Shown: positions 2,988 through 63,596 of the stretch, piece by piece
Layout of the letters: each line of letters begins with the position of its first letter
Numbering within the stretch: the first letter of the stretch is position 1
Source: Ornithinimicrobium tianjinense
Lineage (GTDB): Bacteria; Actinomycetota; Actinomycetes; Actinomycetales; Dermatophilaceae
Direction of reading: 5' to 3'
Assembly: GCF_014636495.1 (NCBI RefSeq)
Contig: NZ_BMEM01000002.1
Span: forward strand, 186,001-250,000
Length of the DNA: 64,000 bases
Notes under the pieces: model-generated
Seen by the model: only the letters and a program-made list of their open reading frames with translations
Told to the model about the DNA's origin: nothing
Databases searched by the model: none
Translations under genes and position numbers: made by a program

Positions 2988-3850
2988 ACGACCCGCTGTC
3001 CCCTCTCACCCGCCTGGTCACCGAGCCCCTGGTGCGCTCTGCGCTGCTGGAGGACCTGGGACTGGCCGGTGACCTCACCTCCGAGTCCGTGGTGCCGCAC
3101 GACACGCACCACACCTTCGAGATCGTCGCGCGCGAGAGCGGGACGCTCGCCGGCCTCGACCTCGCGGCCCTGGCCTTCGAGCTCGTCGGCCCGAGGGCGA
3201 CGTTCACGGCATACCTCGGGGACGGGGACCGCCTGCGCGCCGGGGACGCGGTCGCCCGCGTGAGCGGGCCGGCCCGGTCGTTGCTCGCCGCCGAACGGGT
3301 GGCACTGAACTTCCTGGGTCACCTGTGCGGGGTGGCGACCGCGACCGCCACGCTCGTCGACGCCGTCGCGCACACCAGGACACGGGTGTGCTGCACCCGG
3401 AAGACGACCCCCGGCCTGCGCGCGGTGGAGAAGCACGCGGTGCGGGCCGGTGGCGGGGTCAACCACCGGTTCGGCCTCGACGACGCCGTCCTGGTCAAGG
3501 ACAACCACCTCGCCGTGGCCGGGTCGGTCACCGAGGCGGTCCGCCGGGTGCGGGCACGGGTGGGCCACCTCGTCGCGATCGAGGTGGAGGTCGACAGCCT
3601 CGAGCAGCTCGACGAGCTGCTGCGCGACCCCGTGCACGCCGTGCTGCTGGACAACATGTCGCCGCAGACGACGGCCGAGGCGGTGCGGATGGTCGGCGGG
3701 AGGATGGTGACCGAGGCGTCCGGGCGGATCACCGCCGAGACGGCGCCCGCTCTCGCGGAGGCCGGCGTCGACCTCGTCTCCGCGGGCTGGATCACGCACA
3801 GCGCGCCCGTGCTGGACCTGGGGCTGGACGCGACGTCGACGTCCGGCTGA
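2984..3850 (+). CDS. nadC: Nicotinate-nucleotide pyrophosphorylase (carboxylating) NadC
   Basis: This 288-residue quinolinate phosphoribosyltransferase converts quinolinate and PRPP to nicotinate mononucleotide. Motifs include RKTTPGLRAVEKHAVRAGGG, the VLVKDNHL loop, IEVEVDSLEQ and the DNMSP barrel strand. Its ATG overlaps the nadB stop (ATGA), so translation is probably coupled. It closes the de novo NAD operon. A strong hairpin follows 13 bp after the stop. Confidence 0.96.
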   Translation: MNDPLSPLTRLVTEPLVRSALLEDLGLAGDLTSESVVPHDTHHTFEIVARESGTLAGLDLAALAFELVGPRATFTAYLGDGDRLRAGDAVARVSGPARSLLAAERVALNFLGHLCGVATATATLVDAVAHTRTRVCCTRKTTPGLRAVEKHAVRAGGGVNHRFGLDDAVLVKDNHLAVAGSVTEAVRRVRARVGHLVAIEVEVDSLEQLDELLRDPVHAVLLDNMSPQTTAEAVRMVGGRMVTEASGRITAETAPALAEAGVDLVSAGWITHSAPVLDLGLDATSTSG

Positions 3851-3863
3851 CCTCGGACATGCG

Positions 3864-3901
3864 GGAGGGCCCGCCACCGCGGCTGCGGTGGCGGGCCCTC
3901 C
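3864..3901. terminator. Bidirectional terminator between nadC and tsf
   Basis: Perfect 17-bp arms (3864-3880 and 3885-3901) enclose a 4-nt loop, GGCT. It lies between the convergent nadC and tsf genes and can serve both strands. There is no long T tract, which is common for actinobacterial hairpin terminators. Confidence 0.8.
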
Positions 3902-3927
3902 GACGTGGTGCCGTCAGGCGACGTCGG

Positions 3928-4755
3928 TCAGACGCCGACCTTGAAGCGGGCGAAGCCGATGACCTCGGCGCCGGCCTCCTTGGCGACCTGGCCGACCGTC
4001 TTCTTGGCGTCCTTGGCGAACGCCTGGTCGAGCAGGACGTTCTCCTTGAAGAAGCCGTTGACGCGACCCTCGACGATCTTGGGCAGAGCCTGCTCGGGCT
4101 TGCCCTCCTCGCGGGCGGTGTCCTCGGCGATCCGGCGCTCGTTGGCGACAGTCTCGGCGTCGATCTCCTCACGGGTCAGCACGGACGGCGAGAACGCCGC
4201 GATGTGCATCGCGATGTCACGGGCGACCTGCTCGTCGCCACCGGTGGTCGCCACGAGGACACCGATCTGTGCGGGAAGGTCGGGGTTGGTCTTGTGCAGG
4301 TAGCTCACGACCTTCTCACCGGTGACGCGCGCCACCCGGCGGACCTCGATCTTCTCGCCGATGCCGGCGTTGGCCTCGTCCAGGACCTCCTTGACGGACT
4401 TGCCGTCAAGCTCGGAGGCCAGCAGGGACTCCGCGTCGGTCGCCTCGACGGCCACGGCCTGGGCCAGGACCTTGTCGGCCAGCTCGCCGAACTTCGGGTT
4501 CTTCGCCACGAAGTCCGTCTCGCAGTTGACCTCGACCAGGGTGCCGACGCCGTTCTCGACGTGGGCGCGGACCAGGCCGTTGGAGGCCGAGCGACCCTCG
4601 CGCTTGGTCACGCCCTTGAGGCCCTTGACCCGCAGGATCTCGGTGGCCTTGGTGCGGTCGCCCTCGGCCTCGTCGAGAGCCTTCTTGACGTCCATCATCC
4701 CGGCGCCGGTCGCCTCGCGCAGGGCCTTGATGTCAGCGGCGGTGTAGTTCGCCAT
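3928..4755 (-). CDS. tsf: Translation elongation factor Ts
   Basis: This 275-residue guanine-nucleotide exchange factor recycles EF-Tu. The N-terminal MANYTAADIKALREATGAGM domain and the CETDFVAKN motif are diagnostic. The start is ATG at 4755, preceded by AAGGAGCG. It follows rpsB with a 51-bp gap, the conserved rpsB-tsf order. The gap carries two copies of CTTTTCCGCA on the minus strand. Confidence 0.97.
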   Translation of the reverse strand: MANYTAADIKALREATGAGMMDVKKALDEAEGDRTKATEILRVKGLKGVTKREGRSASNGLVRAHVENGVGTLVEVNCETDFVAKNPKFGELADKVLAQAVAVEATDAESLLASELDGKSVKEVLDEANAGIGEKIEVRRVARVTGEKVVSYLHKTNPDLPAQIGVLVATTGGDEQVARDIAMHIAAFSPSVLTREEIDAETVANERRIAEDTAREEGKPEQALPKIVEGRVNGFFKENVLLDQAFAKDAKKTVGQVAKEAGAEVIGFARFKVGV

Positions 4756-4806
4756 GGGTGCTGTCTCGCTCCTTAGTTGCGGAAAAGCAGTGCGGAAAAG
4801 CGGTGG

Positions 4807-5685
4807 TCAGGACTCGGTGGTCTCGGCAGCGGGCGCCTCGGCCGCAGCCTCGGCAGCCGCCTCGGCCGCGGGGGCCGCCTCGGTCTCGGCCGCGGGGGCC
4901 GCCGCCTGCTCGGCGTCCGCGCCGGCGAGCAGCTCGCGCTCCCACTCGGCCATCGGCTCGCTCTCGGCACCCGTGGACGCGCCGGCGCCACCGCCGGAGC
5001 GCGACATGAGACCGTCGGCGACGGCGTCGGCCACGACGCGGGTCAGCAGGGTGACCGAGCGGATGGCGTCGTCGTTACCGGGGATCTTGTAGTCGACCTC
5101 GTCGGGGTCGCAGTTGGTGTCCAGGATCGCGATGACCGGCAGGCCCAGCTTGCGGGCCTCGGTGACGGCGAGGTGCTCCTTCTTGGTGTCGACGACCCAG
5201 ATGGCCGAGGGCACCTTCTGCATGTCGCGGATACCGCCGAGCGCCTTGCTCAGCTTCTCGTACTCACGACGCATCATGAGGAGCTCCTTCTTCGTGTGAC
5301 CGCTGCCGGCCACGTCGTCGAAGTCGATCTCCTCGAGCTCCTTCATGCGCGCGAGGCGCTTGGAGACGGTGGTGAAGTTGGTGAGCATGCCGCCCAGCCA
5401 GCGGTGGTTCACGTACGGCATACCGACGCGGGTCGCCTGCTCGGCGATCGACTCCTGCGCCTGCTTCTTGGTGCCGACGAAGAGGATGCTGCCGCCGTGG
5501 GCGACGGTCTGCTTGACGAAGTCGTAGGCCTCGTTGAGGTAGGTCAGCGACTGCTGCAGGTCGATGATGTAGATGCCGTTGCGCTCGGTCATGATGAAGC
5601 GCTTCATCTTGGGGTTCCAGCGACGGGTCTGGTGCCCGAAGTGGACGCCGCTCTCGAGGAGCTGGCGCATGGTGACGACGGCCAT
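4807..5685 (-). CDS. rpsB: 30S ribosomal protein S2
   Basis: This 292-residue ribosomal protein begins [19 protein letters not shown] and has the usual S2 motifs: [29 protein letters not shown] and [11 protein letters not shown]. The start is ATG at 5685, preceded by AAAAGGAG. The last 40 or so residues form an Ala/Glu-rich acidic tail, longer than the bacterial average but usual in high-G+C actinobacteria. It is followed by tsf on the same strand. Confidence 0.97.
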
Positions 5686-5908
5686 GCCGAGGTCTCCTTT
5701 TCCGTTGTAGGTGCAGTTGAGTCCTGGCCAGGGGACTCCTCCCACCCGCCGCCGGCTGGCGTCGGGACCGCGGGAGGGGCCGTCGGCGGCTGCCGACCGT
5801 GCCCGGGCGCGAATTCGTGCGGCATGGGGACACACCGCACGTGCCTCTATCCTACCCGTTCCCGGACGTGCTCCCGAACGCGCGCGAGGGCCGGGATAGC
5901 GTGGCGCC
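5686..5908. promoter_or_regulatory. Divergent rpsB / aminotransferase promoter region
   Basis: This 223-bp non-coding gap holds the rpsB leader on the minus strand. TAGGAT (5854-5849, minus) is a possible rpsB -10, giving a leader of about 160 nt that could carry regulation by S2. On the plus strand, TAGCGT (5897-5902) lies exactly 6 nt before the aminotransferase ATG, which suggests a leaderless mRNA. I see no other genes here. Confidence 0.5.
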
Positions 5909-7072: not shown

Positions 7073-7084
7073 CACCCTGCGGGT

Positions 7085-11409: not shown

Positions 11410-11774
11410 CAGGCCACCGCCCTCAGGTGGTGGAGCGCGGGCGGGTCCCCCGCCGTGAGCAGCACCCCGATCACGTCGATCCGGAAGCGGTCCGGTCTGC
11501 GGTCGTGCTCGCGCAGCCACGCCCAGGCCAGCCGCCTCAGGCGCCGGGCCTTCTCGTGACCCACGGCCTCGACCGGCAGCCCGCACCGTGTGGAGCGGCG
11601 CGTCTTGACCTCGCAGAAGACCAGCTCCCCGTCGTCGGACAGGGCGACGACGTCCAGCTCCCCCTCCTTGCACCGCCAGTTGCGGTCCAGCACCTGCCAC
11701 CCGAGCGCCTCAAGGTGCTCGCAGGCCAGGTCCTCCCCGTGGTCGCCGACACCGCGCGCCTCGCGCCACGGCAT
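11409..11774 (-). CDS. yraN: YraN-family (UPF0102) endonuclease-fold protein
   Basis: About 121 residues with the nuclease-like signature GEDLACEHL, NWRCKEGELDVVA, and FCEVKTRRS, matching the E-x-K core of Holliday-resolvase-like folds. Its role is unknown, and it is often next to comM/dprA or rnhB. I prefer ATG at 11774 because GGAGGGG lies 6 nt upstream; starts at 11789 or 11795 are in frame and possible. It is the first gene of a yraN-comM-dprA-M23 operon with overlapping junctions. The 146 bp before it (11775-11920) hold no gene I can support. Confidence 0.85.
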   Translation of the reverse strand: MPWREARGVGDHGEDLACEHLEALGWQVLDRNWRCKEGELDVVALSDDGELVFCEVKTRRSTRCGLPVEAVGHEKARRLRRLAWAWLREHDRRPDRFRIDVIGVLLTAGDPPALHHLRAVA

Positions 11775-11920
11775 ACCCGTCCCCTCCATCGCCACTCCCG
11801 CCCTCGTCCGACCGCGCCAGCCGCGGCCTGACCCCCAGCCAAGACCGGGGGCGGCACGAGCTCAAGGCCCCGGCACGCACCTGTGGACGAGCGCGCCGGC
11901 GCCCAGGGGGATGTGGACGG

Positions 11921-12244: not shown

Positions 12245-12948
12245 AGGGTGCCTCCTTCGGTGACGTTGCCGGTGATCCGCCAGCTGCGGCGGTGGTGCTC
12301 GCTGGGCCCCAGCTCCCGCAGCGCGTCCAGGTGCTCCGGCGCGGCGTAGCCCTTGTTCTGCTCCCAACGGTATGCCGCGTGGCCCGGGGCGAGCTCGACC
12401 ATGAGGGCGTCGCGGCGCACCTTGGCCAGGACCGACGCGGCCGCCACCGAGGAGCAGCGCAGGTCAGCCTTGATCATCGTGCGCACGGGCGGCGGCTCCG
12501 GGCTGCCGTCGGCCAGCCCCAGCAGGCCCACCCGCGCGGGATCGGTGAGCCAGTCGTGGTTGCCGTCGAGGAGCACCAGGTCGGGACGGAGGGCGAGCTG
12601 CGCCAGGGCGCGCTCGCCGGCGAGGCGCAGCGCCGCCATGATGCCGATCTCGTCGATCTCGGCGGGGCTCGCGTGCCCGACGCCATGGCCCAGGCACCAC
12701 CGCTCGATCCGCGGCACCAGCCGCTCGCGGGCGGCGGGCGCGAGGAGCTTGGAGTCGCGCACCCCCGCGGGGGCGCTGCGGCACGACTCGTCGATCGCGA
12801 CGACCCCGACGGTGACCGGGCCGGCGAGCGCGCCACGACCCACCTCGTCCATGCCGACGAGCACGGCATACCCGTCCCGCTGCAGCGTCCGCTCGACCCG
12901 CAGGCTCGGCCTGCGCGTCGCGGGGCGCCGGGTGGCGGTGGCGGTCAC
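12241..12948 (-). CDS. rnhB: Ribonuclease HII
   Basis: A 235-residue endonuclease that removes ribonucleotides and RNA primers from DNA. The metal-binding DEVGRG motif (GMDEVGRGALAGPV), the KLLAP segment and DGNHDW support the call, and KADLRCSSVAAASVLAKVRRD is also present. I chose GTG at 12948 because it overlaps the lepB stop (GTGA). A longer version would run into lepB. The order lepB-rnhB-DUF2469 is typical. Confidence 0.95.
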   Translation of the reverse strand: MTATATRRPATRRPSLRVERTLQRDGYAVLVGMDEVGRGALAGPVTVGVVAIDESCRSAPAGVRDSKLLAPAARERLVPRIERWCLGHGVGHASPAEIDEIGIMAALRLAGERALAQLALRPDLVLLDGNHDWLTDPARVGLLGLADGSPEPPPVRTMIKADLRCSSVAAASVLAKVRRDALMVELAPGHAAYRWEQNKGYAAPEHLDALRELGPSEHHRRSWRITGNVTEGGTL

Positions 12949-14448: not shown

Positions 14449-15327
14449 GTGCACGTGCTGAACCTGCTCGCCCCGCCCGGCAGAGCCGACCTGACCGAGG
14501 CCGCCCTGCGCGACCTGCCGTCCCACTGGGCGGCGGGTCCACCACGGTGGCTGGCCGCCGGGGTGGCCGTCGAGGCTGACGTGGCCCGCGTCCCCGACGA
14601 CCTGTGGCAGGAGTGGGAGCGGTGGCAGGAGCGCGGGTTCGACCTGGTCGTCCAGCCCGCAGCCGGCCGGCGCAAGCGGGTCCTGCTGGCCGACATGGAC
14701 TCCACGATGATCCAGCAGGAGTGCATCGACGAGCTGGCCGCGCACGCCGGGGTCGGCGAGCACGTCGCCGGGATCACCGCCCGAGCCATGAACGGCGAGC
14801 TCGACTTCGCCGAGGCGCTGCACGCGCGGGTGCGCCTGCTCGCCGGCCTGCCCGCGTCCACGGTGGACACCGTCCTGGCCGAGCGCATCACGCTCACCCC
14901 CGGGGGCCCGGAGCTCGTCGCCACCATGCGCGCCCACGGCGCGTATGCCGCGCTCGTCTCCGGCGGCTTCACCCACTTCACGTCGGCGGTCGCGGCCCGC
15001 CTCGGCTTCGACGAGCACCGCGCCAACACGCTGGCGGTCGACGGGGACCGGCTCACGGGAGAGGTCGTCGAGCCCGTCGTGGGGCGGGAGGCCAAGGTGG
15101 CCGCGCTGCAGGAGATCACCGCCAGGCTGGGGCTGACGCCGCAGGACGCGATCGCGGTGGGCGACGGTGCCAACGACCTGGACATGCTGCACCTCGCCGG
15201 CACCGGCGTCGCCCTGCACGCCAAGCCGGCGGTCGCGGCGCAGTGCGACGCACGGGTCAACCACGGCGACCTCACCGCACTGCTCTACCTGCAGGGGTAT
15301 GCCGCGCACGAGCACGTGCGCCCGTGA
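14449..15327 (+). CDS. serB: Phosphoserine phosphatase SerB
   Basis: A 292-residue HAD-family enzyme of the last step of serine synthesis. A short N-terminal regulatory-like segment precedes the HAD core: [16 protein letters not shown] (nucleophile Asp), VSGGFTHFT (motif II), and [20 protein letters not shown] (motif IV), plus the [14 protein letters not shown] tail. I chose GTG at 14449, because TAGGCT (14436-14441) lies 7 nt upstream as in other leaderless starts here. An in-frame GTG at 14419 has no signal. Confidence 0.92.
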
Positions 15328-15340: not shown

Positions 15341-16102
15341 TCAGGCGCGGGGCGCGTCCCAGCCGGTCGCGTCGTCCGCACCGCGTCGCTGCTGCGCCTC
15401 GTAGGCCTCCAGCAGGTCGGGTCGGCGGCGGGCGGTGCGCTCGAGCCGTTGCTGGTCCCGCCACTCCGCGATCGCGCCGTGGTGCCCGGACAGCAGCACC
15501 GGCGGCACCTCGTGGTCGCGCCACACCGGCGGCTTGGTGTAGACGGGGTACTCCAGCAGCCCCCCGGTGTGCGACTCCTCCACCAGGGACGCTGCGTTGC
15601 CGATGACCCCCGGCACCAGGCGCGCGATGGCCTCGGTCATGGCGAGCACCGCGACCTCTCCCCCGTTGAGCACGTAGTCGCCCAGGCTCAGCACGGACAG
15701 CGGGTAGCGGGCGGAGAACTCTTCGTAGACACGCTCGTCGATGCCCTCGTACCGACCGCAGAGGAAGACCAACCAGTCGTCCTCGGTGGCGAGGCGGTAG
15801 GCGACCTCCTGGGTGAAGCGGTCGCCGCCCGGGCCCGGCACCACCAGGTGCGGCGTCCGCCCGGGCAAGGCACGGCATACCTCGTCCAGCGCCTCCCCCC
15901 ACGGCTCGGGGCGCATGACCATCCCCGCGCCCCCGCCGTAGGGCGTGTCGTCGACCGTCCGGTGCCGGTCGTGCGTCCAGTCGCGCAGGTCGTGGACGTG
16001 GACCTCCAGGAGGCCGTCGCGCTGAGCCTTGCCGATGAGCGAGAGCTCCAGCGGGGCCAGGTAGTCGGGGAAGATCGTGACGACGTCGACCCGCAGCGTC
16101 AC
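15341..16102 (-). CDS. trmD: tRNA (guanine-N1)-methyltransferase TrmD
   Basis: A 253-residue SPOUT-class enzyme that methylates G37 of tRNAs to prevent frameshifting. Motifs include [41 protein letters not shown] and [14 protein letters not shown], which forms the knotted SAM site. It begins 3 bp after the rimM stop in the rpsP-khpA-rimM-trmD operon. Confidence 0.96.
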
Positions 16103-17659: not shown

Positions 17660-19165
17660 TCACCCCGGGGCGCCGGTCGGCGCGTGCTCGGCGACGAAGC
17701 GCAGCACCTCGGTCTCGTCGACCCCGGGGAAGACGCCCGGAGGCATGACGGCCAGCAGGTGGGAGTGAGCCCGGGCGCTGGGCCACACCTTGCCCTGCCA
17801 CCGCCGGGACAGCTCGGGCGGCGGCTGGGTGCAGCAGCGCGGGTCGGGGCAGCGCGACACCCGTCGCTCGGTCGTGTCCCGCCCCCGCATCCACCGGACC
17901 TGGTCGAAGGGCACGCCGAGGCTCACCGAGAAGCGACCCGCGGGCGTCTGCTCGGCCACGGCGGTGCACCAGAAGGTGCCCCGGCCGGTGTCGGTGTACT
18001 GGTGGTAGACCTCGCCCTGCGGGCGGTCGAAGACCACGCGGGCGGTCCAGGCCCGGCAGACCCGGGCGCCCTCGATGGCGCCGGTCGCATCCATCGGGAA
18101 GCGCACGCCGTCGTTCTCGTAGGCCTTGTAGATGACGCCGTCGGAGCTGATGCGCATGAAGTGGACGGGCAGCTGCAGGTGCCGGGTCGCCAGGTTGCAG
18201 AACCGGTGGGCCGCCGTCTCGTAGGACACGGCGTAGGCGTCGCGCAGGTCCTCCAGCGCGATGTCGCGCGCCGCCTTGGCCCGCTCGAGGAAGGGCACGG
18301 CGCTGGACTCCGGGATCAGCACGGCCGCGGCGAAGTAGTTGATCTCCACCCTCTGGGCGAGGAACTCGGCGTAGTCGCGCGGCGCCTCGTGCTCCAGGAC
18401 CGCGTGCCCGAGCGCCTGCAGCGCGGTCGCCCGCAGGTCGTGCCCCCCGCGGGTGGGGACGTAGATGCGACGGTGCTCCAGGTCGGTCACGGTCCGGGTC
18501 GAGGCGGGCAGGTCGGTGACCGGCTCGATCTCGAAGCCGGCGTGCCGGGCGATCCGGTTGACCGCCTCGCGGGTGACGGGGCCGTGGCTGTGGTCCACGA
18601 CCCGCACCAGGTCGGCGGCCAGCGCCTCGATCTGCGGGAAGTAGTTGTCGGCCTCGCGCATCCTCCGGCGCAGTTCCGCATTGGCAAGCCGGGCGTACTC
18701 CGGCGTCGCCGCCCGCTGCTGCTGCAGCCCGGCGACGGTCTCGTAGAGGCCGACGAGGGCCTCGAGGGCGTCGTCGGGCAGGCCGGGGCCGACCCGCACT
18801 GAAGGTATGCCGAGCCCGTCGAAGCCGGGCGAGCGCTGGGCCCGCTCCCACTTCACCTCCAGCGCGCTGCGACGGGTCGGCGCACCTCCGGACAGCAGGC
18901 CCGACACCTCTACGCCGAGCGCGCGCGCGAGATCCGTCAGCGTGGTGACCCGCGGCTCGCGCCGGCCGTTCTCGATGAGGGAGAGCGCGGAGGCGGAGAG
19001 CCCGACCCGCTCCCCCAGCTCCGCGAGCGTCAGCCCAGCGGAGCGACGGTGGTGACGCACCCTGCGCCCGAGGGCCACCGCGTCCGTCGTCGACGCAGCC
19101 TCTTCAGCCCCCTCGAGACGCTCGGAGGGGGCGAAGGGCAGGACCCGTCCCTGGGCAGTCGTCAT
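17660..19165 (-). CDS. ramB: RamB/ScfR-like acetate-metabolism regulator
   Basis: A 501-residue transcription factor. It has an N-terminal Cro/CI-type helix-turn-helix ([29 protein letters not shown] is the start of it, near residues 35-85), a middle IrrE-like domain with a degenerate metalloprotease motif (LGHAVLEHE), and a C-terminal DUF2083 domain ([24 protein letters not shown]). This layout matches RamB of corynebacteria and mycobacteria, which controls aceA/aceB and acetate use. It is divergent from aceA here. ATG at 19165 is 6 nt after TATCGT, so it is probably leaderless. Confidence 0.88.
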
Positions 19166-22459: not shown

Positions 22460-23557
22460 TTGGGCGCCCGACCGCTCGTGGGCGTGGCCGCGCAGGATGA
22501 CGCGGTAGGGATCGGCCATCGTGCGCACGTCCTCCCGCGGGTCGTCACGGTAGACGACGATGTCGGCGGACTCGCCCTCGGCGATCCCCGGCCGACCGAG
22601 CCAGTCGCGCGCCGACCAGGTGGCGGCACCGATCGCCTCGACGTTCGACATACCGGTCCTGGTCAGAGCCTCGACCTCACGCGCGACGAGGCCGTGCGGG
22701 AGCTGGCCGCCGGCGTCTGTGCCGACGTAGACCGGCACCCCGGCCTCGTGCGCCTTGGCGACGGTCTCGTAGCGGCGCTCGTAGAGGTCCATCATGTGGT
22801 CGGCGTAGGTCGGGAACTTGCCCCGGCCCGCCTCGGCGAACATCGGGAAGTTGTCGATGTTGACCAGCGTCGGCACGATCGCGATCTGCTGCCGCGCGAA
22901 GGTGTCGATCGTGTCGTCGGTGAGCCCGGTGGCGTGCTCGATGCAGTCGGTGCCGGCGGCGGCGAAGTCGACGAGCGACTGCTCGCCGAAGCAGTGCGCC
23001 GTCACCCGCGCGCCCTCCTCGTGCGCGGCGGCGATCGCGTCGGTGAGGATGTCGACCGGCCAGCAGATCCCCAGATCCCCGCTCTCCCGCTCGATCCAGT
23101 CGCCGACGAGCTTGACCCAGCCGTCGCCGTTGCGCGCCTCCTGCCGGACGTACTCCACCAGGTCCTCCGGCTCGATCTCCCAGGCGAAGTTGCGCAGGTA
23201 GCGCTTCGTCCGAGCGATGTGGCGACCCGCGCGGATCAGGCGGGGCAGGTCCTCGCGCTCCTGGACCCAGCGGGTGTCGGCGGGGCTGCCGGCGTCGCGC
23301 AGCAGCAGCGCGCCGGCGTCGCGGTCGGCGAGCGCGTGCTGCTCGGCGCGCTCGTCGTCGACCGCACCGTGCGCCTCGAGGCCCACGTGGCAGTGGGCGT
23401 CGACGAGGCCGGGGACGGCATACCCGTCGATCGTCTCGACCTCGCCGGAGACCGGCGGAGTCAGGCTCACGACGCCGTCCAGCACCCAGATCTCCTCGAG
23501 CACCTCCTCCGGGCCGACCAGGACCTTGCCTCGCACATGCAGCGCCGGTGCGCTCAT
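22454..23557 (-). CDS. Metal-dependent amidohydrolase
   Basis: A 367-residue TIM-barrel hydrolase of the imidazolonepropionase/prolidase-like branch. Metal ligands visible are DAHCHVG, a Lys in GWVKLVGDW (possibly carbamylated), TAHCFG, IEHATG and GTDAGG. The N- and C-terminal strands form the composite beta domain (YAVPGLVDAH; GESADIVVYRDDP). The substrate cannot be named. GGAGG lies 5 nt before ATG at 23557. Its stop codon lies inside the 22-bp repeat array. Confidence 0.85.
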   Translation of the reverse strand: MSAPALHVRGKVLVGPEEVLEEIWVLDGVVSLTPPVSGEVETIDGYAVPGLVDAHCHVGLEAHGAVDDERAEQHALADRDAGALLLRDAGSPADTRWVQEREDLPRLIRAGRHIARTKRYLRNFAWEIEPEDLVEYVRQEARNGDGWVKLVGDWIERESGDLGICWPVDILTDAIAAAHEEGARVTAHCFGEQSLVDFAAAGTDCIEHATGLTDDTIDTFARQQIAIVPTLVNIDNFPMFAEAGRGKFPTYADHMMDLYERRYETVAKAHEAGVPVYVGTDAGGQLPHGLVAREVEALTRTGMSNVEAIGAATWSARDWLGRPGIAEGESADIVVYRDDPREDVRTMADPYRVILRGHAHERSGAQG

Positions 23558-26492: not shown

Positions 26493-26515
26493 AACCTTGG
26501 GGTATGCCGTGTTCC

Positions 26516-43867: not shown

Positions 43868-45613
43868 TCACTCGACGCCGAGGAGGTAGGGGTAGGTCGG
43901 CTGACCGCCGTCGATGACGACGATCTCGGCACCGGTATGCCGCGTCTCCACCTCGGCGAGCAGCGTCGCCAGGCCGCCGGGCTCGGCGCGCGCGCCCGTG
44001 AGCACGGTGAGGACCTCGGCGGCCTCGTGCCACAGACCGTCCAGCACGACGGCCGCGACCGGCTCGAGGTCGTCCCCGACCGCGACGATGTCGCCGTCGA
44101 CGATGCCCAGCCACTGCCCCGTCCGGCAGTGGCCGACCGGTGTCTCGGCGTCCCGCTCCGCCCGGGTCAGGGCCCCAGGACGACAGGCTCTCGCGGCGTC
44201 AGCCATCGCTGCGAGCACCTGCGCGGGCCGGCCCGAGGGGTCCAGCACCGCCAGGGCGGCCAGGCCCTGGACCAGCGTGCCCGTCGGGACGACGTGCGCC
44301 GCGATCCCCTCCCGGGTCGCCTCCTCCGCGGCCGCCTGGGCCACCAGGACCGTGTCCCTGTCGTTGGGCAGCACCACGACGTCGCGGGCCCCGCTGGCCC
44401 GCATCGCCGCGAGCAGCTGCCCGGCCGAGGCGCGGTGCCGCGGACCGGAGGGGACCACCTGCGCGCCGGCACGCACGAGGAGGTCGTGCACACCCTCGCC
44501 CAGGCCGCAGGCCACGACGGCGATGGGTGGAGGCTCGACCGGCGGGGCGTCGGACCGTCCCTGCGACGCCGCACCGTGCGACAGCCGCGCGGCGGGCAGG
44601 GCCGTCCCGTCGGCGAGCGAGGTGAGCCGCACGTCGACGACCACGCCGGCGAGGCTGCCCGCCTCGACCGCCAGGCGTGGGTCGTCCAGGTGCACATGGA
44701 CCTGGTAGTCCTGCGGGCCCCCACCCACCACGACCGAGCTGCCGATGCGGCTCAGGTGGGCACGGAGCCGGTCGGCGCGCTCCGCGTCAGACTCCGTCAG
44801 CAGGAACATCACCTCGACCTCTCCGTCCAGCTCGCCAGCGGCTCCCGGGGCGCCAGGTCCTGAGGCGCAGCTCGCGGACCCCGGCAGGTCAGGGGTCGCC
44901 GTCGGCTGCTGCCACCAGGTGGGCAGGTCGTCCACCGCCAGGTGGGGCCGGTCCTCCAGGACAGCCTGCAGGGCCTCGATCACCAGGACCAGGCCCGCCC
45001 CGCCCGCGTCGACGACGCCGGCGACGGCGAGCGCGGGAAGCAGCCGGGGCGTGTCGGCCAGCGCCTGCTGCGCCTCGGAGAGCGCCTCGCTGACGACGTG
45101 CCCGACCAGGAGCTGGTCATCAGGCTCGCCGTAGAGCGGTCGACCGCGGTCCACCGCGGCCCTGGCCCCTTCCGCGGCCGCGCGGGCCACGGTGAGGATC
45201 GTGCCCTCCACGGGCGCGGCCAGGGCGTCCCAGGCGGTGCGGGCGGCGGTCTCGAAGGCCAGGGCGATCTCCTCCGGCCCGGCCGCCTCGACGTCAGGCC
45301 CGACCGCCTCGGACAGCCCGCGTGTCAGCTGCGAGAGGATCACCCCGGAGTTGCCCCGGGCCCCGAGCAGCATGCCGCGTGCGATCAGCCGCAGCCCCTC
45401 GTCCAGCCGGTCCGTGCCGGCGCCGAGCTGGAACTGCCCCCGGACGAAGTCGAGGGCGGCGTCGAAGGTGAGGTACATGTTGGTGCCCGTGTCCCCGTCG
45501 GCGACCGGAAAGACGTTGAGCGCGTCGATCCGGTCCCGGGCGCCCGCGAGCATCACCCGCGCGGTGACCGCCCAGCGCCGGGCGGTGCGCAGGTCGAGGA
45601 CAGGGCTGGGCAC
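43868..45613 (-). CDS. DAK2-domain protein, fatty acid kinase FakA-like
   Basis: A 581-residue protein. The N-terminal DhaL/DAK2 ATP-binding domain has NVFPVADGDTGTNMYLTFD, LLGARGNSGVILSQLTRG and VDAGGAGLVLVIEAL. The central and C-terminal parts match FakA/YloV (VACGLGEGVHDLLVRAGA; VVLPNDRDTVLVAQAAA). FakA phosphorylates FakB-bound fatty acids for lipid synthesis; no FakB is in the window. It starts with GTG at 45613, 6 nt after TAGGTT, and precedes recG as in many Gram-positives. Confidence 0.87.
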   Translation of the reverse strand: MPSPVLDLRTARRWAVTARVMLAGARDRIDALNVFPVADGDTGTNMYLTFDAALDFVRGQFQLGAGTDRLDEGLRLIARGMLLGARGNSGVILSQLTRGLSEAVGPDVEAAGPEEIALAFETAARTAWDALAAPVEGTILTVARAAAEGARAAVDRGRPLYGEPDDQLLVGHVVSEALSEAQQALADTPRLLPALAVAGVVDAGGAGLVLVIEALQAVLEDRPHLAVDDLPTWWQQPTATPDLPGSASCASGPGAPGAAGELDGEVEVMFLLTESDAERADRLRAHLSRIGSSVVVGGGPQDYQVHVHLDDPRLAVEAGSLAGVVVDVRLTSLADGTALPAARLSHGAASQGRSDAPPVEPPPIAVVACGLGEGVHDLLVRAGAQVVPSGPRHRASAGQLLAAMRASGARDVVVLPNDRDTVLVAQAAAEEATREGIAAHVVPTGTLVQGLAALAVLDPSGRPAQVLAAMADAARACRPGALTRAERDAETPVGHCRTGQWLGIVDGDIVAVGDDLEPVAAVVLDGLWHEAAEVLTVLTGARAEPGGLATLLAEVETRHTGAEIVVIDGGQPTYPYLLGVE

Positions 45614-46020: not shown

Positions 46021-47031
46021 TCACCCGCCGAAGTGGTCCCACCCGCCCACGGACGGGTCGAGCCGACGCCCGCCCAGCCGGACCCCCGGCGCGTCCGTCC
46101 CCACGGCATACCCGAGGAGGACCCAACCGTCCGGCACGGCGGCCGGGTCCGCGAAGGTGGCGAGCAGCTCGTGCTCCTCTCCCCCGCTGAGCACCTGGCG
46201 GATTGCCTCGTCCTGACCGAGCACAGGCACCAGCGCGTCGGCGATGCTGTGCACCGACCCTTCGTCGAGCTCGAGCACGACCCCGCTGGCGCGCGCGACC
46301 CGGTCCGCGTCCCTGACCAGACCGTCCGAGACGTCGATCATCGAGGTGGCCCCGGCACGGGCTGCGACCGGGCCCTGGGTCAGGTCGGTCAGGGGTCGCC
46401 GGTGGTGGTCGAGGAGGGCCTGGAGCGGGCCCTGCCGTCCCTGACCCGACGCTTCGGCACCGGCCCGCAGCAGCTGCCAGCCCGCCCCGGAGCGCCCGAG
46501 CGGACCGGACACCGCCAGCACTTCGCCGGGGCGCGCACCCGAGCGCAGCACCGGCCGCGCCACGCCCTCGCCCAGCTCGCCGAGCGCGGCGACGGTGACG
46601 GTCACCGTGCCCGCCGGGGCCGAGGACAGGTCTCCCCCGACCACCGGCACCCCCGCGCGGGCCGCGGCCCAGGCGATGCCCTCGGTCAGCCCGCGCGCCC
46701 AGGCCAGCGGCAGGTCGGGCGGGGCGACCAGCGTCACCAGCAGTCCCGTCCCCACCCCGCCCATCGCGGCGAGGTCGGCGAGGTTCTGGGTGACGACCTT
46801 GACCCCGACGTCCTCGGCACAGCTCCACTCGTCCAGCCAGTCGCGTCCTCGCACCATCGTGTCGGTGGTGGCGAGCACCGACCCGCGGGGCGCCCGCACG
46901 AGCGCGGTGTCGTCCCCGGGGCCGACCAGGACGCCTGCCGTGGGCTGGTCGGCGAGCGCCGCGAACACCTCGGCCAGCACCCCGGCCTCACCTGCGTCGC
47001 CAAGAGTGTCGCCACGAGTCACGTCAGTCAC
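46021..47031 (-). CDS. thiL: Thiamine-monophosphate kinase
   Basis: A 336-residue enzyme that phosphorylates thiamine phosphate to the active cofactor. Motifs are VGPGDDTALVRAP, TTDTMVRGRDWL, VTQNLADLAAMG, MIDVSDGLVRDADR and LSGGEEHELLATF, all of the AIR-synthase-like fold. I chose GTG at 47031, since TACCGT lies 7 nt upstream in the leaderless arrangement; a GTG at 47040 is an alternative. Confidence 0.94.
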   Translation of the reverse strand: MTDVTRGDTLGDAGEAGVLAEVFAALADQPTAGVLVGPGDDTALVRAPRGSVLATTDTMVRGRDWLDEWSCAEDVGVKVVTQNLADLAAMGGVGTGLLVTLVAPPDLPLAWARGLTEGIAWAAARAGVPVVGGDLSSAPAGTVTVTVAALGELGEGVARPVLRSGARPGEVLAVSGPLGRSGAGWQLLRAGAEASGQGRQGPLQALLDHHRRPLTDLTQGPVAARAGATSMIDVSDGLVRDADRVARASGVVLELDEGSVHSIADALVPVLGQDEAIRQVLSGGEEHELLATFADPAAVPDGWVLLGYAVGTDAPGVRLGGRRLDPSVGGWDHFGG

Positions 47032-50773: not shown

Positions 50774-51394
50774 GTGAGGATCGAGCCGGAGCCGACGCCG
50801 TGGCACGTCGTGATCCCCGTCAAGCACGCGCACCTGGCCAAGAGCCGGCTCGCCCCGCCCCCGCCGCTCTCCCGGCCCGAGCTCGCCCGCGCCGTGGCCC
50901 GGGACACCCTGGAGGCGGTATGCCGTGCCGTTCCCCCCGACCAGGTCACCGTCGTCACCTCCGACCTGGACGCAGCCGGGGCGGCCGCCGGGCTGGGTGC
51001 CGCGGTGGTGCCGGATCCCGACGAAGGGCTCGACGCGGCGGTGCGCGCCGGTCTCGCGGCGTCCGCCGGGCCCTGGTTCGCCGTCCTGCTCGGTGACCTG
51101 CCCACCCTGACCCCCGCCGAGCTGAACGCCGCGCTCGACGCGTGCGCGGCATACCCCTCCGCAGTGGTCCCCGACGCCCAGGGCAGCGGCACGGTGCTGC
51201 TCACCTCGACCCAGGGACACCCCGAACCACGGTTCGGGGCCGGGTCCGCGGCGCGGCACGCGTCGACCGCCACGCTCCTGCCGCTGGACCTGCCCCGGCT
51301 GCGCAGGGACGTGGACACCTGGGCCGACCTGGGCGAGGCGCTGGCCCTGGGCCTGGGTCCGGCCACGCGCGCCGCCCTGGCGCACCTAGAGTGA
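50774..51394 (+). CDS. cofC: 2-phospho-L-lactate/phosphoenolpyruvate guanylyltransferase (CofC/FbiD)
   Basis: A 206-residue nucleotidyltransferase of coenzyme F420 synthesis. The segment WHVVIPVKHAHLAKSRL, ARDTLEAVCRAV, GDLPTLTPAELN and RFGAGSAARHAS match the family. This implies F420 is made; other F420 genes are outside. GTG at 50774 was chosen from alignment memory (short N-terminus before HVVIPVK); an in-frame start at 50708 would overlap plsC. Confidence 0.88.
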   Translation: MRIEPEPTPWHVVIPVKHAHLAKSRLAPPPPLSRPELARAVARDTLEAVCRAVPPDQVTVVTSDLDAAGAAAGLGAAVVPDPDEGLDAAVRAGLAASAGPWFAVLLGDLPTLTPAELNAALDACAAYPSAVVPDAQGSGTVLLTSTQGHPEPRFGAGSAARHASTATLLPLDLPRLRRDVDTWADLGEALALGLGPATRAALAHLE

Positions 51395-52803: not shown

Positions 52804-53505
52804 GTGCTGAGCGAGATCTGGGACCGGGCCACCTCCGTCCAGCCACCGCTGTCCTGGCCGGCCGCCCTCGTGCTCGGTGTGCTCGCGCTGCTCGTCACCT
52901 GGAGCCCGCTGGGCTACCGCCTCGCCCGTCACCTGGTGACCCTCGTCCACGAGCTGGGCCACGCGCTGGTGGCCCGTCTGGCGGGGCGCTCGGTGCGCGG
53001 CATCCGTCTGCACGCTGACACGTCCGGCCTGACGGTCTCGCGCGGGAGCGCGCGGGGACCGGGGCTCTTGCTCACCCTCCTGGCCGGCTATCCGGCGCCC
53101 GCCGTGGTCGGGGCCCTGGGCGCGCTCCTGCTCGGTCGGGGGTATGCCGCGGGCCTGCTCTGGGCGCTGGTGCTGGCCTGCGCGGCGGTGCTGCTGATGG
53201 TCCGCAATGTCTACGGCCTGCTCGTCGTGCTGGCCGTCGGGGCCGGGGTCGCCGCGCTGTCGTGGGCGGCGCCCGCGCCCCTGGTCACGGGCACGGCATA
53301 CCTGCTGGTGTGGCTCCTGCTGCTCGGCGCCCCACGCTCCGTCACCGAGCTGCAGCGGCAGCGTCGACGCCGGCGCGACCGCAGCAGCGACGCCGACCAG
53401 CTGGCCGCCCTGACCGGCGCACCGGCGGTGGTGTGGGTGGGGCTCTTCTGGCTGGTCTGCGTGGGCGGCCTGGTCGTGGGCGCCGCGTCGCTGCTGCCGG
53501 TGTAG
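52804..53505 (+). CDS. M50-family membrane metalloprotease
   Basis: A 233-residue membrane protein with about five hydrophobic segments. HELGHALVARLAGRSV in the second segment is the HExxH zinc site of M50-like intramembrane proteases, and GIRLHADTSGLTVSRG follows as in the M50B-like group. A cytoplasmic basic segment (RQRRRRRDRSSD) precedes the last helix. The substrate is unknown. It starts with GTG at 52804. Confidence 0.82.
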   Translation: MLSEIWDRATSVQPPLSWPAALVLGVLALLVTWSPLGYRLARHLVTLVHELGHALVARLAGRSVRGIRLHADTSGLTVSRGSARGPGLLLTLLAGYPAPAVVGALGALLLGRGYAAGLLWALVLACAAVLLMVRNVYGLLVVLAVGAGVAALSWAAPAPLVTGTAYLLVWLLLLGAPRSVTELQRQRRRRRDRSSDADQLAALTGAPAVVWVGLFWLVCVGGLVVGAASLLPV

Positions 53506-57350: not shown

Positions 57351-58652
57351 GTGAACGCGAGCACCGCCCTCCTCACGGACCACTACGAGCTGACGATGAT
57401 CCAGGCCGCCCTCGAGAGCGGGCACGCGGACCGGCCGTGCGTCTTCGAGACCTTCGCCCGGCGCCTCCCGGACGGGCGGCGCTACGGCGTCGTGGCGGGC
57501 ACGGGGCGGTTCCTGGAGATGCTGCGGGACTTCAGGTTCGGCGAGGAGGAGATCGGCTTCCTGCGCGACCGCGGGATCGTCGACGGGCGCACCCTCGACT
57601 GGCTCGCCGACTACCGCTTCTCCGGCGACATCTGGGGGTATGCCGAGGGCGAGGTCTACTTCCCCGGCTCGCCGCTGCTCGTGGTCGAGTCGACCTTCGC
57701 CGAGGGCGTGGTGCTGGAGACGCTGGTGCTGTCCACCCTCAACCACGACTCGGCGGTGGCGTCGGCCGCCTCGAGGATGACGGCCGCGGCGGGTGAGCGT
57801 CCGTGCATCGAGATGGGCTCGCGCCGCACCCACGAGGGGTCGGCGGTCGCGGCGGCGCGCGCCGCCTACATCGCCGGCTTCGGGTCGACCTCCAACCTCG
57901 AGGCGGGGCGCCGGCACGGCATACCCACGGCCGGGACGGCCGCGCACTCCTACACCCTGCTCCACGACGACGAGCGCGACGCCTTCGCCAACCAGCTCGC
58001 GAGCCTGGGGCTGAGCACGACGCTGCTCGTCGACACCTACGACGTCCGCGCGGCGGTCGAGCTGGCGGTGGAGCTCGCCGGGCCGGCTCTGGGCGGGGTG
58101 CGGCTGGACTCCGGCGACCTCGTGGGTCAGGCGCAGCAGGTGCGGGCCCAGCTGGACGCGCTCGGCGCTCACGGCACCAAGATCGTGGTGACCTCCGACC
58201 TCGACGAGCACGCGATCGCCGCCCTGGCTGCTTCGCCGGTCGACCGCTACGGCGTCGGCACCAACGTGGTGACCGGCTCCGGGCACCCGGCCGCCGGGCT
58301 GGTCTACAAGCTCGTGAGCCGCGAGAGCGACGCCGGGGTGATGGAGGGGGTGGCCAAGGCGAGCAAGGACAAGGCCTCGGTGGGCGGGCGCAAGTTCGCG
58401 CTCCGGCGCCGCTCCGCCGACGGCGTCGCCCAGGCGGAGATCATCGGCATCGACGAGCGTCCCCAGGACGACGGCGACGACCGCGAGCTGCTGGTGCGCC
58501 TGGTCGAGCGTGGCGAGGTGGTCGCCCCGACCGACGCCGGGACCGCCCGCGCGCACCACGCGATGGCCCGCGCGGAGCTGCCCCGGGAGGCGCTGCGCCT
58601 GTCCCACGGCGAGGCCGCGATCCCCACCACCTATCTCGACGACTGGAGCTGA
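57351..58652 (+). CDS. pncB: Nicotinate phosphoribosyltransferase
   Basis: A 433-residue NAD-salvage enzyme converting nicotinate, PRPP and ATP to nicotinate mononucleotide. Motifs are LLTDHYELTMIQAA, GSRRTHEGSAVAAARAAY, GTAAHSYTLLHDDE, DTYDVRAAVE and VRLDSGDLVGQAQQVR. GTG at 57351 is 6 nt after TAGGCT. It is followed by pncA 12 bp later, so one operon turns nicotinamide into NaMN. Confidence 0.94.
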   Translation: MNASTALLTDHYELTMIQAALESGHADRPCVFETFARRLPDGRRYGVVAGTGRFLEMLRDFRFGEEEIGFLRDRGIVDGRTLDWLADYRFSGDIWGYAEGEVYFPGSPLLVVESTFAEGVVLETLVLSTLNHDSAVASAASRMTAAAGERPCIEMGSRRTHEGSAVAAARAAYIAGFGSTSNLEAGRRHGIPTAGTAAHSYTLLHDDERDAFANQLASLGLSTTLLVDTYDVRAAVELAVELAGPALGGVRLDSGDLVGQAQQVRAQLDALGAHGTKIVVTSDLDEHAIAALAASPVDRYGVGTNVVTGSGHPAAGLVYKLVSRESDAGVMEGVAKASKDKASVGGRKFALRRRSADGVAQAEIIGIDERPQDDGDDRELLVRLVERGEVVAPTDAGTARAHHAMARAELPREALRLSHGEAAIPTTYLDDWS

Positions 58653-60555: not shown

Positions 60556-60582
60556 GTCGGCTCCGATCGTCGTGGAGGCAGG

Positions 60583-60601: not shown

Positions 60602-60615
60602 AGAGAGTGCTCTCT
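60602..60615. promoter_or_regulatory. Second inverted repeat in the hmgA control region
   Basis: AGAGAG-TG-CTCTCT abuts the first repeat and lies 13 bp before TAGCGT (60629-60634), the -10 of the plus-strand operon, so it covers the -35 region. Confidence 0.45.
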
Positions 60616-60641
60616 GGCCACCATGCAGTAGCGTGCCGGGC

Positions 60642-61496
60642 ATGTCAACGATGGCCGTGTCCCGCGCGCTCCTCCTCGACCTGGTCGACGACGCGGCCGT
60701 CTTCCCGCCGGGCAACGCACCTGTCGAGCGGGCCTGGTCCGAGCACCTGGCGCTCCGCGCCGGCCGGTATGGCGACCTGCTCGGCCCCCTCCTCATCGGC
60801 ATCTCCGGTGCAGCCTCCCTCGTCGACGTGGCCGCCGCCAGCCCAGGGGGACCGGTAGGGGTGGCCGTCATCGCCCGCGCCGGCACCGCCGTGACGGACC
60901 TGCTCTCGGCGGTGGAGACCCTCGCCGCCAGTCCCTGGCTCACCGTCGTCGCCGTCGAGGTCGCCCACGACGCGGACGGTGACTGGCGCCGGGCGCTCTC
61001 GCTCGGTGTCCCCGTGGCCGTGGAGGTGCCCCGCGACCCCGAGGCCCAGCGCGTGGCTCTCGACGAGATCGCCGCCGCGGTGGAGGAGGCGTCGCATCCG
61101 GTCCTGGCCAAGCTGCGCACCCAGGCCACCGCGCAGGCTCCCGCGCCGTCCCCGGACGAGCTGGCCGCCTTCCTGGTCGGCACCCGCGAGCGCGGGCTCA
61201 CCTTCAAGCTGACCGGCGGCCTGCACCACGCGGTCGCGGGCGAGGACGAGCACGGCTTCCACCACGGCGTGCTCAACGTGCTGCTCGCCACCCACGACCT
61301 CTCTGGCGGGGCATCCGCCGGGGCCGTCGCCGAGCGTCTCGACGTCCGGGACGGGCGTGCGCTCGCCGAGATCGTCCGCATGCTGGACGCCGCTGACGTC
61401 GCCGCCGTCCGTTCGCGTCTCGCCTCGTTCGGTTGCTGCGGCGTGACCGACCCCCTCGACGAGCTGCACGAGCTCGGCATACCCGAAGGAGCCTGA
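60642..61496 (+). CDS. Unrecognised protein coupled to fahA
   Basis: A 284-residue soluble protein. Visible features are LLDLVDDAAVFPPGNAPVE near the N-terminus, repeated VAV/VEV beta strands separated by Ala-rich helices, FKLTGGLHHAVAGEDEHGFH, and RLASFGCCGVTDP near the end. The alternation suggests a TIM-barrel-like fold. I do not recognise a named family. It starts at ATG 60642, 7 nt after TAGCGT, and its stop overlaps the fahA start (TGATG), so it very likely serves tyrosine/homogentisate breakdown. No glutathione-type maleylacetoacetate isomerase is in the window, and this gene occupies that place. Confidence 0.8.
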   Translation: MSTMAVSRALLLDLVDDAAVFPPGNAPVERAWSEHLALRAGRYGDLLGPLLIGISGAASLVDVAAASPGGPVGVAVIARAGTAVTDLLSAVETLAASPWLTVVAVEVAHDADGDWRRALSLGVPVAVEVPRDPEAQRVALDEIAAAVEEASHPVLAKLRTQATAQAPAPSPDELAAFLVGTRERGLTFKLTGGLHHAVAGEDEHGFHHGVLNVLLATHDLSGGASAGAVAERLDVRDGRALAEIVRMLDAADVAAVRSRLASFGCCGVTDPLDELHELGIPEGA

Positions 61497-62656: not shown

Positions 62657-62665
62657 CCCGGCTCC

Positions 62666-63460
62666 TCAGCGCTTCTTGACCACGTTGGTCTTCGCGGCCT
62701 TGTCGTGGAGAGCCTGGCGCTTGCCGTCCCACAGCGGCCACAGCACGTTGAGCAGGTAGACCGGGGCGAAGACGCCGCTGAGCTGGTAGACGAGGGAGCG
62801 GATGAGCGCCGCGCCCCAGCCCGGCAGCCCCGGCTGGTCGCGCAGGCGCACCCGCAGCCCGGTCATCAGCTTGCCGAGCGTGCCGCCGACGAGGGCCACC
62901 ATGACCACCTCGTAGACGAAGCCGACCACGGCGAGCACCAACGACCACTGGGCCACCCGTCCCATCAGCTCCGCCGGGGGCTGGGCTGCGGGGTCGGTGG
63001 CGCTGAGCGCCCAGTCCGTGTAGTCGGCCCACACGCCGGGAACCAGGGTGTTGGCGACCAGCCCCCCGACGATCGCGATGACGATGCTGTCGAGCAGTCG
63101 CGCCCCGACCCGGTGCCACCAGCCGGCCAGCGGCTGACCGTCCGGCGTGCGGGTGCGCTCGTCGGTCTGGGTGGCAAAGCCCCCCGGCATGGCCTGGTAG
63201 GGCTGCTGACCCGTCTGGCCGGCATAGGGGTTGTTCTGTCCGTACTGCCCGTACTGCTGCTGCCCGTAGGGCTGGCCCTGCTGCTGCTGGCCGGCGAACG
63301 GTCCCCCGGGCTGACCGTAGGCCTCCTGGGCCGGCGCCCCGGCGCGGTCGAGGTCGGGCTTCTGCTTGGGGCTGGTGTGGTTCGTCCACTGGACCCCGTC
63401 CCAGTAGCGAAGGTTCTCGGCGTTCTGCGGGTCGTCGTACCACCCTGCTTGCTGACTCAT
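62666..63460 (-). CDS. RDD-family membrane protein with N-terminal DUF2510 motif
   Basis: A 264-residue protein. The N-terminus AGWYDDPQNAENLRYWDGVQW is a DUF2510 element, followed by a Gln/Gly/Tyr-rich low-complexity linker (about 50-95). An RDD domain then has three or four membrane segments (WWHRVGARLLDSIVIAIVGG; GGTLGKLMTGLRV). RDD proteins may be ion transporters; the role here is unknown. ATG at 63460 fits the WYDDP spacing. It interrupts the tyrosine genes. Confidence 0.85.
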   Translation of the reverse strand: MSQQAGWYDDPQNAENLRYWDGVQWTNHTSPKQKPDLDRAGAPAQEAYGQPGGPFAGQQQQGQPYGQQQYGQYGQNNPYAGQTGQQPYQAMPGGFATQTDERTRTPDGQPLAGWWHRVGARLLDSIVIAIVGGLVANTLVPGVWADYTDWALSATDPAAQPPAELMGRVAQWSLVLAVVGFVYEVVMVALVGGTLGKLMTGLRVRLRDQPGLPGWGAALIRSLVYQLSGVFAPVYLLNVLWPLWDGKRQALHDKAAKTNVVKKR

Positions 63461-63558
63461 GTGGCCCACTCTCCCACGTCACGAGCGTCCGTCCGACCAG
63501 GACACCGTGGGCTGTGGACAGAGCACGCGAGGCGGCCCGCCGCCCCGCAGAGAAGAGC

Positions 63559-63596
63559 GCGGACGGCATACCTCCCCATTGAGGTATGCCGTCCGC
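63559..63596. terminator. Terminator of hpd, built from two inverted GGCATACC copies
   Basis: Perfect 16-bp arms (63559-63574 and 63581-63596) with a 6-nt loop CCCATT. Each arm contains GGCATACC or its complement. It lies 30 bp after the hpd stop on the minus strand. Confidence 0.8.

Follow-up and report, generated by a model that had tools for sequence, protein, structure and literature searches.

A nine-base word over-represented in the genome of Ornithinimicrobium tianjinense and in its family, and its probable likeness to DNA uptake words

The window analyzed here is a stretch of 64,000 nucleotides from Ornithinimicrobium tianjinense (contig 2 of assembly GCF_014636495.1, NZ_BMEM01000002.1, positions 186001-250000; genome 3.31 Mb). 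It carries 29 exact copies of the octamer GGCATACC, 16 on the plus and 13 on the minus strand, against a mean of 0.75 and a largest count of 4 in 100 dinucleotide shuffles of the window. Since the base C precedes the octamer in 29/29 copies, the unit was taken to be the 9-mer CGGCATACC, of which 0.40 copies are expected in the window under an order 2 model. CGGCATACC probably works like an uptake word in the manner of the DNA uptake sequences (DUS) of Neisseriaceae, short of classification as a DUS. A preliminary description of this DNA, made by eye, had reported the octamer as strongly over-represented; its count (about 29; 16 and 13 by strand) was exact and its positions were right to within 3 bases. 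The span that it gave (3208-63590) is just that part of a genome-wide feature which falls in the window.

Over-representation and sequence tolerance

Words were counted on both strands of the whole genome, with the same word spelt backwards as the control. GGCATACC occurred 647 + 636 times (reversed word 8 + 9) and CGGCATACC 633 + 625 = 1,258 times (reversed word 1 + 4 = 5). Finer counts used a 484-kb sample from the same genome, made up of contig 1 1-400000, the comEC region and the window, with genes called by our own simple caller. The sample held 191 copies of CGGCATACC: 151 in genes, 33 intergenic and 7 at boundaries. Gene-by-gene shuffling of synonymous codons (450 genes, 60 shuffles) gave 10.3 copies (standard deviation 3.0, maximum 18) vs the 151 real ones. 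Markov models of orders 1-7 trained with the copies masked predicted 1.9-24 of the 191; orders 5-7 came near the observed count (131-188) when the copies were included, because they then belonged to the training set. Codon use and composition, which the preliminary description had named as what might explain the count, were thus ruled out as its cause by the shuffles and the masked models, and CGGCATACC stands ~70-fold above the masked order-3 model.

Coding copies lay on the same strand as the gene in 75 cases and on the opposite strand in 76, in all phases. Density was 0.97/kb outside genes vs 0.34/kb inside (2.8x). The presence of copies on both strands and in all phases, the synonymous-shuffle test and the higher intergenic density support the preliminary view that frame and strand are irrelevant and that the constraint acts on DNA rather than protein. 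Over 400 kb of one contig the strands were balanced (77 plus, 79 minus), with a cumulative range within that of permutations and no trend, and gaps between copies were exponential (mean 2.5 kb, coefficient of variation 1.03).

Single-mismatch forms of CGGCATACC were in clear excess at position 3 (107 vs ~10 expected) and position 9 (62 vs ~6). Variants with C or T at position 2 numbered 21 vs ~3, those with C at position 7 19 vs 7, and those with C at position 5 17 vs 10.5. In the window, the base 5' of CGGCATACC was A in 18 copies and G in 7 (25/29), and the next base upstream was C in 23/29. Flanks were common only to ~2 bases upstream; because nothing is shared beyond that, the word is not a mobile element.

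Orientation of neighboring copies

Neighboring copies in the window's genome had the same orientation in 65/188 cases (P 3e-5), and in 109/357 (P 1e-13) when variants at positions 3 and 9 were included. Among neighbors <1 kb apart the fractions were 14/64 (exact) and 41/179 (with variants). All pairs <600 bp apart comprised 8 same and 38 opposite for exact copies (22.6 of each expected) and 22 same and 96 opposite with variants (79 of each expected). With variants the avoidance faded by 1.5-2 kb; exact neighbors >4 kb apart were also in the same orientation in only 11/33 cases, which is unexplained. Six other frequent words of the same genome were all in the same orientation in more than half of cases, three of them at P <0.05.

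In 27 loci from other carriers of CGGCATACC, counted without the pair that had selected each locus, neighbors <1 kb apart were in the same orientation in 15/71 cases with variants (P 1e-6) and in 6/20 exact (P 0.12). Four same-genus regions gave 1/1 exact and 2/8 with variants. Seven genomes that use other words (described below) gave 71/189 at <1 kb (P 8e-4); avoidance was clear in G045 (1/9), G050 (6/24) and G056 (18/57) and unclear in G046 (11/26). Reading of CGGCATACC in the main dialect may therefore be restricted to one strand or one side, a second same-orientation copy in a typical fragment being redundant.

Distribution among genomes

A close sample comprised 97 genomes: 31 of the same genus, 28 of other genera of family f1 (one each) and 38 from 19 other families of the order. 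We take f1 to be the broad Dermatophilaceae/Intrasporangiaceae of GTDB. Within the genus, 30/31 genomes held 193-1,323 copies of CGGCATACC, the exception being G022 with 20. Of the 28 other f1 genera, 12 held 305-1,267 copies, 4 held 52-112 and 12 held 2-33; the maximum in the 38 genomes of other families was 49. A wider sample of 246 genomes, drawn across the class, included 5 family members, of which 3 held 466-1,258 copies; the maximum among the 241 genomes outside f1 was 182, in 7.5 Mb with a control count of 42. High counts are confined to family f1 among the genomes sampled.

Named carriers were drawn from a scan for close inverted pairs, which listed at least 80 loci, followed by whole-genome counts in 26 genomes. 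Among the matches listed, 17/26 were rich in CGGCATACC and the other 9, from other groups, held <=83 copies. Rich genomes were Knoellia koreensis (2,085), K. subterranea (943), K. locipacati (835), K. sinensis (788), K. aerolata (561), Pedococcus bigeumensis (1,431), Metallococcus carri (1,267), Serinicoccus chungangensis (1,103), 'Janibacter sp. HTCC2649' (1,090), Flexivirga meconopsidis (603; control 96), Intrasporangium chromatireducens (588) and five metagenome-assembled genomes, among them a Tetrasphaera and a Lapillicoccus. The counts for Serinicoccus chungangensis coincide with those for G028, so this species probably falls within the genus of the window.

Dialects and turnover of sites

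Six sister genera with low counts had another dominant, related word with one or a few letters changed (40- to 100-kb samples). CGGCATCC was dominant in G046 and G056, with 3,816 (control 392) and 3,949 (control 289) copies in the whole genomes; the other 37/39 genomes counted held 260-1,336. CGGCGTAC was dominant in G053 and, more weakly, in G054. Whole-genome counts of CGGCGTACS were 1,630 in G053 (control 91) and 1,053 in G054 (control 105), and 18-547 in the other 37/39 genomes (547 in G049); the word of G054 was weak against synonymous shuffling (CGTACGCC, 53 vs 18). CCGCATACC, as CCACCGCATACC, was dominant in G050 and AGCGGCATACG (AGCGGCATAC) in G045 (100-kb samples each). Outside the family but within the order, G078 held 1,452 copies of GAGGCATCC(G) (control 5), the second genome of its family (G094) 194, and the other 42/44 genomes <=59. 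Letters common to all six words in a by-eye alignment correspond to G3, C4, T6 and C8 of CGGCATACC.

Samples of 40-60 kb from G022, G031, G032, G038, G039, G040, G043, G044, G049 and G058, and of 27.5 kb from G036, showed no outstanding word. G031 accounts for the 1,336 copies of CGGCATCC (control 310), above the other genomes without that word and with no dominant word in 60 kb. In G015, TG follows CGGCATAC in 4/11 copies, perhaps a sub-dialect at position 9. CGCATCGGC is a possible word of G067 (family f10), with 46 copies vs 10.2, 4.5-fold over synonymous shuffling in 100 kb. CGGCGTCC of G059 is not claimed as a word, being only ~2-fold over synonymous shuffling (149 vs 78), nor is a candidate from a 20-kb sample of G062, which was not among the leading words in 100 kb.

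On a ComEC tree (55 proteins), the main word was scattered across the family (38 rows, 9 label changes, of which strong branch support forced 7), both CGGCATCC genomes were sisters (93/93) and word-less genera were interspersed (10 rows, 8 changes). This scatter suggests an old word with later spelling shifts and losses in the family. Long ComEC branches were seen in word-less G038, G039, G044 and G032, and in word-bearing G041 too.

Conservation of individual sites was followed in one region, with small numbers. In four word-bearing same-genus genomes (78-81% nucleotide identity), 8/24 alignable window sites were kept exactly and, in the reverse direction, 8/15 of their sites were kept in the window; any aligned 9-mer was kept in 17-22%, these control 9-mers being unmatched for codon rarity. 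None was kept in word-less G022 (0/3) or in G056, G053 and G045 (0/7). The conservation in relatives that the preliminary description had proposed to look for is thus partial, seen in word-bearing relatives and absent from G022. The mutM site (37858..37866) was kept in 4/5 same-genus genomes, all four word-bearing and not G022; in G056, of the CGGCATCC dialect, it reads CGGCATCCC, which contains the local word, as one site in translation.

Phage DNA

In G002, two pieces of comEC are separated by 40.1 kb in which phage-like genes and a serine-recombinase-like gene were recognized by eye; this stretch holds 1 copy of CGGCATACC vs 9.4 expected at genome density (P 0.0008). Viral stretches with a related portal gene, taken as the best 80 of 136 and presumably mostly from other hosts, held 2 copies in 1,118 kb. 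The nearest two of these, each 21.5 kb long, held 0 copies, where the densities of G002 and G017 would give 5.1 and 6.9. The first matches the query exactly, hence is not independent, and the host of the second was guessed. Viral contigs were also scanned for close inverted pairs, and 15 were found, with 2-3 copies per stretch. In the one prophage examined and in viral relatives, CGGCATACC is scarce in recently acquired DNA.

The two pieces of comEC lie ~40 kb apart both in G002 (contig 1:1161102-1202035) and in G017 (contig 46:68443-109701). The G002 insert resembles a siphophage prophage, with the serine-recombinase-like gene at one end, and recalls the Listeria comK prophage.

Uptake machinery

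In the window's genome comEA and comEC are adjacent. ComEA matched TIGR01259 at E 2e-24, below the curated cut-off; ComEC matched TIGR00361 at E 4e-55, just below the cut-off, and PF03772 above it. A Flp/Tad cluster at contig 1 133860-138048 comprises TadA, further tad-like genes, a Flp prepilin and TadE-like and TadF-like genes, the small ones being named from motif and gene order. Micrococcus luteus, also an actinobacterium, likewise carries comEA, comEC and tad genes, and its transformation depends on comEC and the tad genes (PMC4322843); a difference is that the term 'uptake sequence' is absent from that text. The type IVa pilus was rejected as the machine: its retraction ATPase PilT scored above cut-off in 10/78 genomes and, in the 59 genomes of f1, in G055 only (G035 had a split match below cut-off).

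Tad and ComEA were ruled out as markers of word carriers, both being found with and without the word. Small Tad pilins of seven loci, G000 and G046 showed no pattern with the word, a weak result in that the motif scan missed some (e.g., G038). Loss of comEC as the explanation of word-less G022 was withdrawn, the shortened ComEC match there being a contig end.

The Tad/Flp (TadA) loci of word-bearing genomes held 1 copy of CGGCATACC vs ~18 expected (25 loci, 100 kb), the expectation being drawn from each genome's coding density and the orthologous loci not being independent. Comparison regions in word-bearing genomes held 16 vs 22 (ComEC loci) and 17 vs 16 (recG regions), observed vs expected. 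If this depletion is real, uptake genes are themselves without the uptake word.

Interpretation and alternatives

Under the proposed mechanism, CGGCATACC would be the word by which a natural transformation system recognizes self DNA. DNA with the word would be preferentially bound or imported, entering via a Flp/Tad pilus with ComEA and ComEC, and would then be recombined into the chromosome; the uptake bias would let the word accumulate genome-wide, as DUS do in Neisseriaceae and uptake signal sequences (USS) in Pasteurellaceae. A shift of receptor preference would have given the dialects of some genera, and its loss the absence of the word from others. We infer a positive effect of the word on uptake, its recognition by the Tad/ComEA/ComEC machine and a polarity in that recognition. 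A more specific proposal is tentative: an independent actinobacterial uptake-word system might be read with polarity, each strand needing its own copy every ~1-2 kb and a same-orientation second copy being useless, with spelling shifts as genetic barriers and a sister family with its own word. The reader may then be the Tad pilus, ComEA, ComEC or a further partner. Among the three roles offered in the preliminary description, an uptake or recognition word fits best, because related words occur in sister genera, the word is scarce in phage DNA, there is no strand trend and com/tad genes are present. A modification site fits worse since it does not predict over-representation, as does a partition or nucleoid site, which predicts neither the even spread nor the changing spelling and the loss in sister genera.

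Several findings weigh against an uptake word. ComEC was found in 57/59 and ComEA in 58/59 f1 genomes, and TadA matched in 62/62 genomes searched (weakly in G036), word-less ones included in each case, so the com/tad genes permit an uptake role and do not prove it. No word receptor was identified among ComEC, ComEA and TadA, which occur with and without the word, or among the small Tad pilins, compared in nine genomes. G002 and G017, with comEC in two pieces, still hold 981 and 1,127 copies of CGGCATACC. Near-copies mismatched at positions 1, 4, 6 and 8 were not in excess (484 kb); decaying uptake words should leave near-copies, as expected from H. influenzae. Inverted pairs <=60 bp apart were not in excess either (5 vs 4.5 expected, 484 kb). 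Avoidance of same-orientation neighbors was absent in 3/7 other-dialect genomes, namely G053 (11/25), G054 (9/16) and G078 (15/32), where a high background of short words may dilute the effect or the effect may be truly missing. No report of natural transformation in f1 was found among the papers listed, judging by titles and abstract starts and with no genus-by-genus look-up. The orientation effect also differs from what has been published for uptake words: for the USS of H. influenzae, the direction and place of the word within a fragment reportedly made no significant difference to uptake (PMC7811141 and PMC1939737; PMC1939737 for word orientation).

The main rival is a Chi-like polar word, a signal for a RecBCD- or AdnAB-type helicase-nuclease to switch from degradation to recombination, because it would give similar orientation behavior: both orientations would be needed, breaks being approached from either side, and a same-orientation neighbor would be redundant. 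The avoidance of such neighbors within ~1 kb in the window's genome and in same-dialect loci agrees with this, as does the scarcity of the word in phage DNA, and Chi too is a polar recombination word enriched in host DNA. Chi is, however, shorter than CGGCATACC, lies preferentially on the leading strand and keeps its form across wider groups, whereas CGGCATACC showed no trend over 400 kb (77 plus, 79 minus), is denser outside genes, varies in spelling between genera of one family and is missing in others. A Chi-like role is on this evidence unlikely. A recognition site for modification or defense that marks self DNA, whether for a methyltransferase, a type III-like enzyme needing two inverted sites or a BREX-like system, would account for a non-palindromic word with inverted neighbors that is scarce in phage DNA, and dialects could track enzyme specificity. 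Restriction selects against sites rather than for them, a modification site enriched ~70-fold would be unusual, and other letters are tolerated at positions 2, 3 and 9. The nearest enriched modification-type word, HIP1 of cyanobacteria, is likewise a hugely over-represented short word; it is a palindrome linked to methyltransferases, whereas CGGCATACC is not its own reverse complement. We regard a modification or defense site as improbable.

Binding by a nucleoid-associated, partition or segregation protein would suit a word that is genome-wide in host DNA and prefers stretches outside genes. Sites of the parS, KOPS and matS types are clustered near ori or ter, or strand-polarized; CGGCATACC is even over 400 kb and strand-equal with exponential gaps, and its spelling shifts and absence within one family also argue against a chromosome-organizing site, which is very improbable. 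There is next to no likelihood that the word is without function, as a product of mutational or gene-conversion bias or the remnant of a spread repeat; this view has no direct support: its flanks are common only to ~2 bases upstream, and mutational bias should not lift one 9-mer ~70-fold without its neighbors at positions 1, 4, 6 and 8.

An uptake word would be best compared with the DUS dialects of Neisseriaceae (Frye et al., 2013; PMC3630211). Likenesses are a non-palindromic word of ~10 bp in very many copies, genic and intergenic, whose spelling varies in related ways between sister genera; a small set of invariant core letters (CTG plus another A in DUS; G3, C4, T6 and C8 here); and family members without the word, five such having been found in Neisseriaceae. 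Unlike DUS, CGGCATACC belongs to actinobacterial hosts with Tad/Flp, PilT being above cut-off in only 1/59 f1 genomes; no ComP-like receptor was found here, close hairpin pairs are without excess, and same-orientation neighbors are avoided over ~1 kb in the main dialect. The USS of H. influenzae form 109 pairs within 14 bp (PMC7811141 and PMC1939737), whereas close pairs are not in excess here and same-orientation neighbors are avoided.

No paper on an actinobacterial uptake word was found among the open-licence papers listed, judging by titles and abstract starts; those listed for the word itself probably contain it in primers, to judge by their titles. Dialects of uptake words have been documented in two Gram-negative families, and CGGCATACC, if it is one, would be a third, independent case, in high-G+C Gram-positives. 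Self-recognition in transformation would then evolve repeatedly, and many actinobacteria of family f1 would transform naturally and often. It would also motivate a search for one more word receptor, and would offer engineers a tag to make these organisms transformable; the same-orientation spacing would be a handle on DNA entry into a cell without an outer membrane.

Copies in the window

Table 1. Exact copies of CGGCATACC in the window (coding and intergenic assignments by our own gene caller).
Feature	Positions	Strand	Location
CGGCATACC copy	3207..3215	+	in nadC
CGGCATACC copy	5416..5424	+	in rpsB
CGGCATACC copy	11769..11777	+	coding
CGGCATACC copy	12369..12377	-	in ribonuclease HII gene
CGGCATACC copy	12864..12872	+	in ribonuclease HII gene
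CGGCATACC copy	15296..15304	-	coding
CGGCATACC copy	15873..15881	+	in trmD
CGGCATACC copy	18804..18812	-	in gene named ramB in the preliminary description
CGGCATACC copy	23416..23424	+	coding
CGGCATACC copy	23765..23773	-	coding
CGGCATACC copy	26501..26509	-	intergenic
CGGCATACC copy	26826..26834	+	in ffh reading frame, beyond end of ffh profile match
CGGCATACC copy	28814..28822	+	coding
CGGCATACC copy	33342..33350	-	in smc
CGGCATACC copy	34143..34151	+	in smc
CGGCATACC copy	36369..36377	+	start of coding sequence
CGGCATACC copy	37858..37866	-	in mutM
CGGCATACC copy	40974..40982	-	intergenic
CGGCATACC copy	43934..43942	-	coding
CGGCATACC copy	46104..46112	+	coding
CGGCATACC copy	50917..50925	-	coding
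CGGCATACC copy	51147..51155	+	coding
CGGCATACC copy	53141..53149	-	coding
CGGCATACC copy	53294..53302	+	coding
CGGCATACC copy	57637..57645	-	coding
CGGCATACC copy	57917..57925	+	coding
CGGCATACC copy	61475..61483	+	coding
Inverted CGGCATACC pair	63564..63591	63564-63572 + and 63583-63591 -	hairpin arms

The identities given in the preliminary description for nadC, ffh, mutM and isocitrate lyase (aceA) were confirmed by NCBIfam, and aceA has zero copies of CGGCATACC and one GGGTACGCC, as it had claimed; the name ramB was not upheld, the protein being without an NCBIfam match at E 1e-20. Terminator hairpins were ruled out as the driver of the word, pairs within 60 bp being without excess; all 5 such pairs in the 484 kb are inverted. 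The hairpin of the window is strong (fold -36.6 kcal/mol, z -8.1) and is flanked by two genes of the minus strand, at a distance of 35 bases beyond the end of the reading frame at 63627. The window also holds 6 copies of the 12-mer ACCGGACAGGCG, counting both it and its complement, with 0.05 expected.

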